This document shows, one piece after another, positions 28,538-35,605 of a stretch of 64,000 nt of DNA. The stretch's first letter is position 1. Each line of letters starts with the position of its first letter. A program made the translations under genes and the position numbers. This DNA comes from Halarcobacter sp. (GTDB taxonomy: Bacteria; Campylobacterota; Campylobacteria; Campylobacterales; Arcobacteraceae), in the NCBI RefSeq assembly GCF_963676935.1, contig NZ_OY781470.1, positions 310,001-374,000 of the forward strand, written 5' to 3'. Below the pieces are notes generated by a model. It was given only the letters and a program-made list of their open reading frames with translations. It was not told the DNA's origin and did no database searches.

Positions 28538-29422
28538 TTAATGAACTTCTCTCCATTTACTTGCTTTCCATAACCATGCAAAGATTGCAAAAATTACTAA
28601 GTAAATTAAGAATTTTGGTCCTAATTCTTCTCTTTCTTGTTTCTTAGAATCTCCAACTTTTTCCATATAAGATACAACTTGTTTTTCAGCATCATGAGTT
28701 AAACCAACTCTAGGCATAGCTGTACCCTCTAAATGTTTTTGTGGATCATTTACAAATTCATGAATATATTCTGCACCTCTAGATCTAATGTATTGAGATA
28801 AATCTGGTGGAATTTTCCCCATATATGCTTTGATATTTTCAACTGGAGTTTTTGCACTCATTGTACCATTTTTCATATCTCCATATTTAATACCATGACA
28901 TCTTTGACAAGCATCTTTGAATACTTCTTTGTCTGTCATCTCTTTTGGAGCAATAGATTGTAAGTAAGCTACCATATCAGCAATCTCTTGAGGTTGCATC
29001 CAACCATAACCTGGCATTGGATGAACTTTCCCATCAACAAATTTATGCGAAGTTTTAGAAGCTTTTGCTGGATCTTTAATAAATGCAGCTAGATAATCAG
29101 GATTATAAAGTTTACCTGATGTTCCTAAATCAGGTGGAACTACGCCATAAGCTGCAGCTGAACTAGCATCATCCATAATTTGAGGAAACCCTTGTGCTTC
29201 AATTGAGTGACAAGCTGTACAGTTTGTTTGTACTAATATAGCACCATTTTCAGCATTCCCTGTTAAGGCTTTTACATCAGTAATATCTGCTTGTACATCT
29301 TCAAATGTATAATCAGGTGCCTCAACATGTGGGTGCATTTGTGAGTGTGCAAATGGTTCAACACCCCAGTAAGTAACAAGTGTTAATACAACTACTACAG
29401 CTAATATTTTTAATTCTCTCAT
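28538..29422 (-). CDS. petC: cytochrome bc1 complex, dihaem cytochrome c subunit
   Basis: 294 residues. N-terminal anchor/signal (residues ~4–20), two haem sites CTACHS (C68, C71, H72) and CQRCHG (C172, C175, H176), and a C-terminal membrane helix (FLIYLVIFAIFAWLW). Two haems instead of one, as in other Campylobacterota bc1 complexes, where this subunit replaces classical cytochrome c1. Passes electrons from the Rieske protein to soluble c cytochromes or the oxidase. Shares one base with the petB stop. Confidence 0.95.
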   Translation of the reverse strand: MRELKILAVVVVLTLVTYWGVEPFAHSQMHPHVEAPDYTFEDVQADITDVKALTGNAENGAILVQTNCTACHSIEAQGFPQIMDDASSAAAYGVVPPDLGTSGKLYNPDYLAAFIKDPAKASKTSHKFVDGKVHPMPGYGWMQPQEIADMVAYLQSIAPKEMTDKEVFKDACQRCHGIKYGDMKNGTMSAKTPVENIKAYMGKIPPDLSQYIRSRGAEYIHEFVNDPQKHLEGTAMPRVGLTHDAEKQVVSYMEKVGDSKKQEREELGPKFLIYLVIFAIFAWLWKASKWREVH

Positions 29423-30669
29423 TACTCACCTCTCTTTTTAACGTCAATTTTTGTAACAATTGGAAGTATCACAAATAATAGGATAAATGCCGTAGCAGCA
29501 AAGAATCCAATCCATGCGTTTGTTCCTGTTGGAGGTAATTTACCCCAAATTGTTAATATTATTAAGTCAACCATTAAAATCCAGAACCATACAAAGAAAG
29601 CAGGTCTTTTGTGTGCTGGTAAAATTTTTGTATCTCTATCTAACCAAGGTAATACTAGGAAAATTGCATTTGCAAATCCAAATGCAGCAAGACCAATATC
29701 AAATGCTTTAATTGGACCAACATCAAAGAAGAATCCTCTTAACACTTCATACGACCATAAGAAATACCATTCTGGATAAATATGTGCAGGAGTAACCATG
29801 TTATCAGCTGGATCGAAGTTAACTGGATCCATTGCAAAATTATAATGGAAGAATACTAAATAGAAATAGAAAATTAAGAAGATACCTAATACAGCTAAAT
29901 CTTTAGAGATAAAAATTGGCCAGAAAGGAATAACTTTTGACTCTTTTTTATTTCCACTTAGATATTTTTCTGCTTCTGCATCATAATCTATATCTTCAGA
30001 AGTTTGGTTATTAACATGAGGAATTCTTAATGTATAGAAATGTAATCCTATAAGACCCATAATTACAATTGGTAATAAGAATACGTGTAACATAAAGAAT
30101 CTTGTTAATGTAGCATCAGCAACGTTAAAGTCACCTCTAATCCACACAACAAGTGCATCACCAATAACTGGAACACCACCAAAAAGGTTAGTAATTACCA
30201 TAGCAGCCCAGTAAGACATTTGTCCCCATGGTAACATATATCCTGAGAATCCAGCAGCTGAGAATGTCATAAATAATAACATACCAGAAATCCAAATCAT
30301 CTCTCTACCTTGTTTATAAGAACCATAATAGATACCTGTAAACATGTGAATATAGATAATTAAGAATACAACCGAAGCTGCTACACCATGCATATGTCTA
30401 AATAACCATCCAAATGCAACCTCTTGCATAATTGTATAGTTAACAGAATCAAATGCTAAATTTACATCTGGTTTATAATACATCATTAAGAAGATACCAG
30501 AAATAATAAGGATACCAAAAGTAGTTGCTAAAAGAACACCCATCGCCCATAAGAAGTTAATATCTTTTGGAATCCAGTATTCTGTCATCATTACTTTATT
30601 AAATGTAGTAGTGTTTAATCTTTGGTCTAACCACTCTCCAACAGAGTTAGCTTTAGTAATCTTTGCCAT
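29422..30669 (-). CDS. petB: cytochrome b of the bc1 complex
   Basis: 415 residues, about eight to nine membrane helices. Haem-b histidines lie in FRHMHGVAASVVF with IYIHMF (helix B) and in MLHVFLLP with GLHFYTL (helix D). The Qo-site PEWY motif is present (YPEWYFLWSY). It oxidises menaquinol and moves electrons to the Rieske centre and PetC. Between petA and petC in one operon. Confidence 0.97.
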   Translation of the reverse strand: MAKITKANSVGEWLDQRLNTTTFNKVMMTEYWIPKDINFLWAMGVLLATTFGILIISGIFLMMYYKPDVNLAFDSVNYTIMQEVAFGWLFRHMHGVAASVVFLIIYIHMFTGIYYGSYKQGREMIWISGMLLFMTFSAAGFSGYMLPWGQMSYWAAMVITNLFGGVPVIGDALVVWIRGDFNVADATLTRFFMLHVFLLPIVIMGLIGLHFYTLRIPHVNNQTSEDIDYDAEAEKYLSGNKKESKVIPFWPIFISKDLAVLGIFLIFYFYLVFFHYNFAMDPVNFDPADNMVTPAHIYPEWYFLWSYEVLRGFFFDVGPIKAFDIGLAAFGFANAIFLVLPWLDRDTKILPAHKRPAFFVWFWILMVDLIILTIWGKLPPTGTNAWIGFFAATAFILLFVILPIVTKIDVKKRGE

Positions 30670-30679
30670 ACTCTTCTCC

Positions 30680-31180
30680 TTATGCCATCATCGCTGTTGC
30701 GATTTTTTTGTACTCAGGACCCTCTTCCCCAAGAACAATTTCTGTACCTTTTACACTGAAAGGTGGTAAATCAAGCGGTCTTGGAGGAGGACCAAATACT
30801 TGCTCTGCACTAGGGTTAAATTCACCACCGTGACATGCACATTTCCATTTATCTTTTTTCCATGCAGGAATACAACCTAAGTGAGTACATAATCCAATTG
30901 CAACAGTAAATCTTTCACCATTAACAACTAGATCTCTTTTGTTATCTTCCATTTCAGGAGTTTTTTTAAGAATAAATATTGGCTTACCTCTCCATGTAAC
31001 TACAATCGGCTCACCAGCTTTTATTCCACTAAGTTCAACAGTCGTAAAACCTCCAGCTAATACACTTGGAAGTGGATCCCATGCTTGTTTCATACCTACA
31101 AGCGAAGCTGCACCACCGACAGCTGCAACAGCTGCAAATGTATAACCTAGAAAATCTCGTCTATTAGTTTCGTTAGACAT
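30680..31180 (-). CDS. petA: Rieske 2Fe-2S subunit of the bc1 complex
   Basis: 166 residues. Twin-arginine motif NRRDFLG at 6–12 followed by a hydrophobic anchor to ~30, then the Rieske fold with CTHLGC (C98, H100, C103) and CACHGG (C114, C116, H117). Tat export of a folded Fe-S protein is the norm. First gene of petABC; AAGGAAG precedes the ATG, and a minus-strand TATAAT lies 33 bp upstream (31213–31218). Confidence 0.96.
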   Translation of the reverse strand: MSNETNRRDFLGYTFAAVAAVGGAASLVGMKQAWDPLPSVLAGGFTTVELSGIKAGEPIVVTWRGKPIFILKKTPEMEDNKRDLVVNGERFTVAIGLCTHLGCIPAWKKDKWKCACHGGEFNPSAEQVFGPPPRPLDLPPFSVKGTEIVLGEEGPEYKKIATAMMA

Positions 31181-33760: not shown

Positions 33761-35605
33761 TTACTTAGATTTATTTTGAAGTACAAATATAGATTTTGTA
33801 AATCTAACTACTGTATTTCTTCCATTGTTTTTTGCTTTATAGAGGGCTAAATCAGCAAATCTAATTGCTTCTTTTATATCATCAGTATCTTTAGGATACA
33901 TAGATACACCAATACTTAAAGTTTTTCTAACTGTGGTTATTCCACCAGTTGGAATTTCTGCTTTTGAAAAATTCATTCTGATTTTTTGAGCTACTTCTAT
34001 AATCGATTTTTCATCACAATTATATAGAAGAATCATAAATTCCTCTCCACCATATCTTATAGCAATATCTGATTCCCTAATATTTTGATTTAAAATTTCA
34101 GCAACTATTTTTATCGCATTATCTCCAATCTCATGCCCATAAGTATCATTGATAATTTTAAAGAAATCAATATCTAACATCAAAATACCATATTCAACTT
34201 TTAATCTATTTGTTTGAGCAGTTATTTTTGGAATTATATCTTCTAAATATTTTCTGTTAAAAAGTCCTGTTAATGCATCTGTTTGTGCATTTTTTTCTAG
34301 TATGTGCATTAATTTTTTACTTACTATTACAGTTTTTGCAACATCTACATAATCTTGAATATATGGAGTTAGATTTTGTACTCTTTTAACCTCTTTTTCA
34401 CTCTCTGTGAATATTGAGATAATAAGGTCTAACTCATTTGAAATAGAATAAGGAATACAAAAGTAGTTGTATTTTTCACATGAGTGACAGGCTGGGCATA
34501 TATCTTTAAACTGCGTAGAATCAATCATTGTATTTGTTCTATCTGCTCTACAACCCTCTTCAAAAATATTACAAAAAATATTTTTTTCTTTATGTACTAC
34601 TGTAATCTCACCATTAACTGTATTTGCTTCAAAAAAGTTAAAATTTTCTATACCAGTTTTATCTTTGATAATTTGGGCTAATCTATCATAAACTTGGTCT
34701 ATAGTTTCATCATATTCGATTGTTTTTCTAAATTTATAAACATCTGAAAGTCTTTCAACTGTATTTTTTACATTTATTAAATGATCTTTATCTATTTTTC
34801 TTTGGTTTTCTGAAAGAAAAATAGATATCTTAGCATCAATAGAATCTAAAGTAATCTCTAGTTTTTCCAAAAATCCATTAATCCAAGTAGATACATCTTC
34901 TGATTCTTTACCTTTAACTCCAATAATACGATATGAATAATCACCTTTTTGAGCTTTATTCATAACTTTTCTAATTGAATCAAAAAGACTTAAAAATGGA
35001 GATATTATTATATTTAATATGAAAATAATTACTATCATAAGTATTAATGCAATTGTAATGGTATTTGTCATAGTTTTTATACCTACTTGCTTAGATTCAT
35101 CAATTGACATCTGAATAGTAATTGCACCTAAGGTATCACCTTCTTGAGCATTACTATGACATGAGATACAATTGATTTTACCTGTGCTTGTAGCATTATA
35201 AGGGATTGTAATTCTATAATTACTCTCAGAAAAAATATTTTCATCTATAACTCTTTTTGTTTTACCTGTACGTAATACCTCTTCATCAATGTTATCTTTT
35301 ACATGTTCGTTAAGTAAACCAACACCATAAAGTTCAATAACTTTTTGACCTCTACTTAACCAGATTTTATCAATATTTGGAATGTTTTTTAATTGGCTTA
35401 AAAATAATTCTCTATCATCGATAACACCAGAAACCATTTGTGAAGTTAAAGAGTGTTCAACAGTTTTTGCAATGGCATGTGCTTTATCATCAATGGATTT
35501 AATACCATATTCTCTAAAGTTATATACCATATCTGCAATTATAAGGATAAACATAAAACTTATAATTGAAATAACTAATAAGATAATTTTGTTTTTTGTT
35601 TTCAT
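33761..35605 (-). CDS. membrane diguanylate cyclase with periplasmic haem-type CXXCH and cytosolic Cys cluster
   Basis: 614 residues. Membrane helices at 8–28 and 181–205 enclose a ~150-residue periplasmic sensor ending in CISCH (146–150), a c-type haem attachment motif placed just before the second helix. HAMP-like segment ~206–260, then a GAF-like region with C345, C352, C370, C373, H374, C376 and C383, a likely metal or Fe-S site. The GGDEF domain follows from ~440, with GGEEF at 519–523 and an inhibitory site RESD (510–513), so it should make c-di-GMP. A redox or gas sensor is inferred. A minus-strand TATAAT is at 35637–35642. Confidence 0.9.
   Translation of the reverse strand: MKTKNKIILLVISIISFMFILIIADMVYNFREYGIKSIDDKAHAIAKTVEHSLTSQMVSGVIDDRELFLSQLKNIPNIDKIWLSRGQKVIELYGVGLLNEHVKDNIDEEVLRTGKTKRVIDENIFSESNYRITIPYNATSTGKINCISCHSNAQEGDTLGAITIQMSIDESKQVGIKTMTNTITIALILMIVIIFILNIIISPFLSLFDSIRKVMNKAQKGDYSYRIIGVKGKESEDVSTWINGFLEKLEITLDSIDAKISIFLSENQRKIDKDHLINVKNTVERLSDVYKFRKTIEYDETIDQVYDRLAQIIKDKTGIENFNFFEANTVNGEITVVHKEKNIFCNIFEEGCRADRTNTMIDSTQFKDICPACHSCEKYNYFCIPYSISNELDLIISIFTESEKEVKRVQNLTPYIQDYVDVAKTVIVSKKLMHILEKNAQTDALTGLFNRKYLEDIIPKITAQTNRLKVEYGILMLDIDFFKIINDTYGHEIGDNAIKIVAEILNQNIRESDIAIRYGGEEFMILLYNCDEKSIIEVAQKIRMNFSKAEIPTGGITTVRKTLSIGVSMYPKDTDDIKEAIRFADLALYKAKNNGRNTVVRFTKSIFVLQNKSK

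Follow-up and report, generated by a model that had tools for sequence, protein, structure and literature searches.

A phylum-wide family of Campylobacterota diguanylate cyclases with a predicted periplasmic c-type haem and a likely cytosolic metal site

Introduction

What a bacterium might sense through a diguanylate cyclase that bears a haem-attachment motif on one side of the membrane and a group of cysteines on the other is the question raised by one open reading frame of Halarcobacter sp., analysed here within a window of 64,000 nucleotides. Cyclic di-GMP usually controls swimming versus sticking, Campylobacterota inhabit redox gradients, and the host genome (a single contig of 3.1 Mb) contains 45 GGDEF matches. 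An earlier note on this DNA, made from the sequence alone, had read the protein as a cyclase tuned by two metal sensors in series, a periplasmic haem and a cytosolic Fe-S or zinc site.

Results and Discussion

The open reading frame (33761-35605 of the window, minus strand, as are all features of the protein given below) encodes a protein of 614 aa with a diguanylate cyclase layout, in the order membrane helix 1, periplasmic CISCH domain, membrane helix 2, HAMP-like linker, Cys-rich GAF domain and GGEEF domain. The sequence features listed in the earlier note are all present, namely CISCH at residues 146-150, cysteines at 345, 352, 370, 373, 376 and 383, His374, RESD at 510-513 and GGEEF at 519-523. 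The search for this architecture in Campylobacterota that the same note had proposed revealed a phylum-wide family: with residues 1-430 as query, relatives were found in 93 of 104 same-family genomes, and profile matches, some partial only, in 204 of 397 genomes sampled across the phylum. The host genome itself holds three full-length copies, at 344, 539 and 1034 kb. The cyclase belongs to an ancient Campylobacterota family, and an alignment of its 111 distinct full-length homologues provides the conservation counts used here.

The C-terminal domain (residues 436-600; 33806..34300) matches the GGDEF models of Pfam (E 5.9e-46) and TIGR00254 (E 5.9e-53), shares the fold of the DosC GGDEF domain (Z 22) and contains the metal and GTP residues in GGEEF, LDIDFFK and NDTYGH. 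The GG and F of the active-site motif (34037..34051) are present in 111/111 homologues, and the RESD product-inhibition (I-) site (34067..34078) retains R510 in 85 and D513 in 97 of them. By domain, motifs and fold the protein is a diguanylate cyclase, with c-di-GMP synthesis as its predicted activity.

Hydropathy displayed only two hydrophobic peaks, corresponding to membrane helix 1 at residues ~8-27 (35525..35584; peak 7-25, model helix 3-59) and membrane helix 2 at residues ~179-201 (35003..35071; top peak 183-201), with a basic N-terminus and the enzyme domain C-terminal of the second helix. The CISCH motif (35156..35170) falls inside the intervening 150-residue extracytoplasmic domain (residues 28-178; 35072..35524), about 30 residues N-terminal of helix 2. 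The membrane prediction thus puts the motif outside the cytoplasm, as the earlier note had it, whereas its phrase "just outside membrane helix 2" was too loose. The linker that follows (residues ~202-262; 34820..35002) is HAMP-like according to Pfam HAMP matches in two family members that stay below the cut-off (best E 0.001), a family profile match to a HAMP-containing kinase (E 0.0015) and model helices at 169-219 and 233-261. No Pfam domain was found above cut-off in residues 1-435, and the fold search with the full model (Foldseek/VIA) was filled by GGDEF domains and was uninformative on the periplasmic part.

The periplasmic domain was assigned as haem-Cache-like from its model strands and from its profile alignment with GSU0935. 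The strands run at residues 78-85, 117-121, 129-137 and 158-167, and the CxxCH loop connects the third to the fourth. The same loop carries CxxCH in the extracytoplasmic Cache domain of the sCache_heme topology (PMC12889525); the Cache fold was judged here by strand order alone. M57, R85, P135, C146, C149 and H150 are invariant in 111/111 cyclases, and Met57 (35435..35437) is also present in 17/17 related chemoreceptors, giving 128/128 sequences. The cyclase family aligns with GSU0935 (3b42) by hhalign at 93% and E 3.7e-7, an E-value largely due to the haem motif: with the haem segment masked, the match falls to 3.7% (2.3% for Tll0287), and it stands at 37% when the chemoreceptors are added to the masked profile. 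An HMM search to GSU0935 (E 0.2) and the hhalign alignment both place Met57 on Met60 and CxxCH on CxxCH in a single register, Met57 falling on chain residue 26 of 3b42, which is Met60 (His144 being chain residue 110; offset 34).

The haem domains of the cyclases and the chemoreceptors are related well beyond the motif (hhalign 99%, and 95% without the haem segment), whereas the match to Campylobacterota members of PF11845 drops from 94% to 2% when that segment is left out. The window protein has no Pfam match to PF11845; 3/31 relatives match it (best E 0.066), and the chemoreceptor relatives reach or nearly reach its cut-off. A plain PDB sequence search with the periplasmic part returned only weak 3b42 and cytochrome fragments. 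In the Geobacter sensors, Met60 ligates the reduced haem and leaves upon oxidation, with CO or NO taking its place (PMC8396549); a 2026 preprint (PMC12889525) describes NO binding by c-haem Cache domains, their enrichment in Campylobacterota and their fusion to GGDEF. The periplasmic c-type haem proposed in the earlier note is consequently well supported, by the invariant CxxCH, the invariant Met57, the significant GSU0935 profile match and the two large CcsA-type cytochrome c assembly genes of the genome, and covalent haem attachment at CISCH is predicted with near certainty. Met57 is the putative sixth haem ligand, and because this invariant residue aligns with GSU0935 Met60, the periplasmic module looks like the c-haem Cache sensor (NO/redox) described in 2026. 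The same genome also encodes a stand-alone Tll0287-type haem protein (L217, 20-2661), flanked by a sulphide:quinone reductase-like flavin oxidoreductase and a cytochrome with two CxxCH motifs.

On the cytosolic side, residues 262-436 modelled alone gave a pTM of 0.75 for a model built from 8 sequences only, and this model matched solved GAF domains (Foldseek, VIA-align), with Z 12.7 and rmsd 3.5 over 148 residues for 3ibj and Z 12.6 for 3eea. Pfam gives no GAF match in the window protein. The loops bearing the cysteines have pLDDT of ~50-60, and the geometry of the Cys tetrad is not captured by the model. Cys352 (in CRAxRT; 34550..34552), Cys370 (34496..34498) and Cys383 (in CIP; 34457..34459) are each conserved in 110/111 homologues; the column of Cys345 (34571..34573) holds a cysteine in 104/111, and the segment 338-351 holds one somewhere in 106/111. 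Cysteine makes up 10.5% of the equivalent of residues 338-385 vs 0.6% of the remaining cytosolic part across the 111 homologues, a motif pattern that is far beyond chance on sequence grounds. The CPACHSC stretch that the earlier note took as the core does not share in this conservation, with C373 in 46/111, C376 in 17/111 and H374 likewise not conserved. A cytosolic metal site therefore stays the likely reading of that note's second sensor, with Cys345, Cys352, Cys370 and Cys383 (C-X6-C-X17-C-X12-C in the window protein) as its candidate ligands.

Similar domains adjoin GGDEF in other phyla, in proteins that bear CWALRKG...C.H...C[IV]P or near variants. Among 21 aligned GAFs from several phyla, invariance is limited to four columns, namely Cys352, Cys370, Cys383 and one Leu, and the Campylobacterota GAF aligns with this class at 96.7% by hhalign (93% with Cys masked). 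The cytosolic domain (residues ~270-432; 34310..34798) thus adopts, by model and profile, a GAF fold and belongs to a wider Cys class. That class in turn aligns with the GAFs of AirS-type kinases at 97% (96.8% masked), and an Anoxybacillus AirS-type kinase (L291) was found by a profile without any AirS sequence (E 2.4e-4). Relatives of L291 in Bacilli carry the motif C-X7-C-X-C-X17-C, which in AirS reportedly binds a [2Fe-2S] cluster (PMC4601167). We infer that the Bacilli kinases are AirS orthologues from this motif, from how their domains are arranged and from the response regulator gene alongside. As an observation in its own right, L291 (1029-2141) and L293-L302 form a set of Bacilli AirS-type GAF histidine kinases with C-X(3-11)-C-X-C-X17-C whose GAF is related to the Cys-rich class that adjoins GGDEF.

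Aligned through the intermediates, the CWC and last Cys of the AirS type fall onto Cys352 and Cys370. The full AirS ligand set C-X7-C-X-C-X17-C is absent from the window protein, in which CxC is replaced by CxA, as is usual in its family; only two of the four AirS positions are securely common, and Cys383 is an extra ligand candidate of the cyclase family. The Fe-S link is only transitive, because the direct hhalign of the cyclase GAF family with the AirS-type GAFs is not significant (0.9%). Of the two metals left open by the earlier note, Fe-S is favoured over zinc solely through this transitive link. That the GAF binds zinc instead, in a structural or regulatory role and beneath an unchanged periplasmic c-haem sensor, is rather unlikely, given the transitive homology to an Fe-S GAF, the position of the ligands in flexible loops next to the GAF pocket and the life of Campylobacterota across redox gradients. 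On its side, four Cys, or three with Cys373 or the His of C-x-H, are equally typical of zinc, and E. coli DgcZ is a precedent for a zinc-regulated cyclase (PMC8846402).

The pattern of exceptions bears on whether the cysteines hold a metal at all. CxxCH and the Cys triad are retained together in 110/111 homologues; the sole relative without the triad (L266) has lost the entire Cys site and kept CxxCH. Random loss of both motifs from orthologues that keep GGEEF, named in the earlier note as evidence against its reading, was not seen, since losses concern whole modules. Of the 110 triad-bearing relatives, 106 have a Cys N-terminal of Cys352, and the remaining 4, three from one clade and one from elsewhere, have Cys373 or C-x-H (His372). 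Every triad-bearing relative thus has at least four candidate ligands, which suggests metal ligation, the independent events behind this pattern being few. Among the fold matches of the GAF model are free methionine-sulphoxide reductases, themselves GAF folds that use redox Cys near the GAF pocket, and by analogy the cysteines could form a metal-free thiol-disulphide switch. This is considered very unlikely, as a triad kept together with a shifting fourth residue, Cys or His, is more in keeping with metal ligation than with the formation of disulphide pairs.

The haem and GAF modules also occur apart. The haem module is found without the GAF in chemoreceptors and an HD-GYP protein (L191, L203, L200), and in L201 and L202, cyclases of another family in the phylum, CxxCH is present and the GAF cysteines are absent. 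These two cyclases, together with the NO sensing assigned to signalling-fused c-haem Cache domains (PMC12889525), agree with an enzyme in which the haem alone signals, as a periplasmic NO sensor cyclase with the GAF as a structural coupler. Such an arrangement is nonetheless quite unlikely: the Cys triad is conserved as strongly as the haem motif, and the Cys4 GAF appears to be selected on its own because other cyclases (L197-L199, L204) keep it without CxxCH. Therefore, each module seems to be under its own selection, and haem and GAF look like two independent inputs and not one composite site, nor the sensors in series that had been proposed. In L197, L198 and L199, the HAMP-like/Cys4-GAF/GGDEF half is retained with a shorter, CxxCH-free periplasmic part. 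L205 has neither motif, and L201, L202 and L205 form a series of stepwise module loss. The HD-GYP phosphodiesterase L200 has the same CxxCH periplasmic domain, so that c-di-GMP breakdown, too, may respond to the haem.

The window protein and 34 orthologues form one clade (group A, support 0.985), which in Arcobacteraceae lies between argB and a helicase gene at nearly all loci examined, gene names outside the window being read from protein starts. A second paralogue lies by hisA, and other families by glmS. Cytochrome bc1 genes (c1-like, cytochrome b, Rieske) occupy 28540-31180 of the window on the same strand just beyond thrC, and the order thrC then bc1 recurs in two relatives checked (L275, L276). 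Across the argB/thrC, hisA and glmS loci, no conserved neighbour points to respiration; because the neighbours are housekeeping genes, the neighbourhood is uninformative on function. The respiratory link suggested in the earlier note is plausible in itself and is not displayed by these loci.

Architecture, invariance, homology and predicted folds, which underlie the proposed haem attachment, Met ligation, metal identity, signal and sign, are best explained by a membrane diguanylate cyclase gated by a c-haem in the periplasm together with a metal site in the cytosol that is probably Fe-S, an explanation given somewhat better than even chances. Outside the membrane, CISCH would anchor a c-haem covalently in a Cache-type domain, the proximal ligand being His150 and the distal one Met57. 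Oxidation of the haem, or binding of NO or CO to the reduced haem, would displace Met57, located where helix 1 ends, and so move the membrane-entering helices. Helix 2 and the HAMP-like linker may relay this signal to the GAF, whose four-Cys site (345/352/370/383), most likely Fe-S as in AirS-type GAFs, would read cytosolic redox, O2 or NO. Both inputs would jointly set the geometry of the GGEEF dimer and hence c-di-GMP output, with feedback inhibition through RESD. Electron transfer from haem to GAF was considered and rejected, as the membrane and the HAMP-like linker would separate the two sites too far.

Compared with known systems, the protein resembles the sCache_heme / DUF3365-Tll0287 sensors GSU0935 and GSU0582 (PMC12889525, PMC8396549) in its periplasmic location and in having CxxCH on the loop that joins the last two strands, and the GSU0935 type in its helix-1 Met at the Met60 position and a HAMP-type linker C-terminal of helix 2. 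It differs in being too divergent for Pfam PF11845 and in adding the Cys4 GAF; the fusion of c-haem Cache to GGDEF is already known from the preprint (PMC12889525), whereas the GAF is not mentioned there. AirS-type [2Fe-2S] GAF kinases (PMC4601167) share the GAF fold, the equivalents of Cys352 and Cys370 via intermediates and a Cys near 345, and differ in a histidine kinase output, CxC instead of Cys383 and no periplasmic haem domain. The GAF-GGDEF proteins of other phyla with CWALRKG / CxH / C[IV]P (L046, L047, L048, L068, L105) have a GAF adjoining GGDEF with three Cys aligned, yet match in the cytosolic half only, some with a His after Cys370 as fourth-ligand candidate; no reported function for this class was found in the open-access literature searched. 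Cofactor sensors joined to diguanylate cyclases are known in the globin DgcO, the haemerythrin VcBhr-DGC and the zinc-binding DgcZ from a 2022 census of c-di-GMP sensors (PMC8846402), in which the terms c-type, iron-sulfur and Fe-S are absent.

Conclusions

A farther-reaching possibility, advanced tentatively and thought less probable than not to hold in full, is that these phylum-wide cyclases with c-haem and Fe-S GAF make c-di-GMP only for certain combinations of inputs, which would render them transmembrane redox coincidence detectors and the first Fe-S-regulated diguanylate cyclases. The Cys-rich GAF class that lies beside GGDEF in several phyla may likewise consist of Fe-S sensors. Overall, a single protein may sense redox or NO both inside and outside the membrane, and the residues named here (Met57, His150 and Cys345/352/370/383) could be the means by which a major phylum of redox gradients couples swimming and attachment to these signals.
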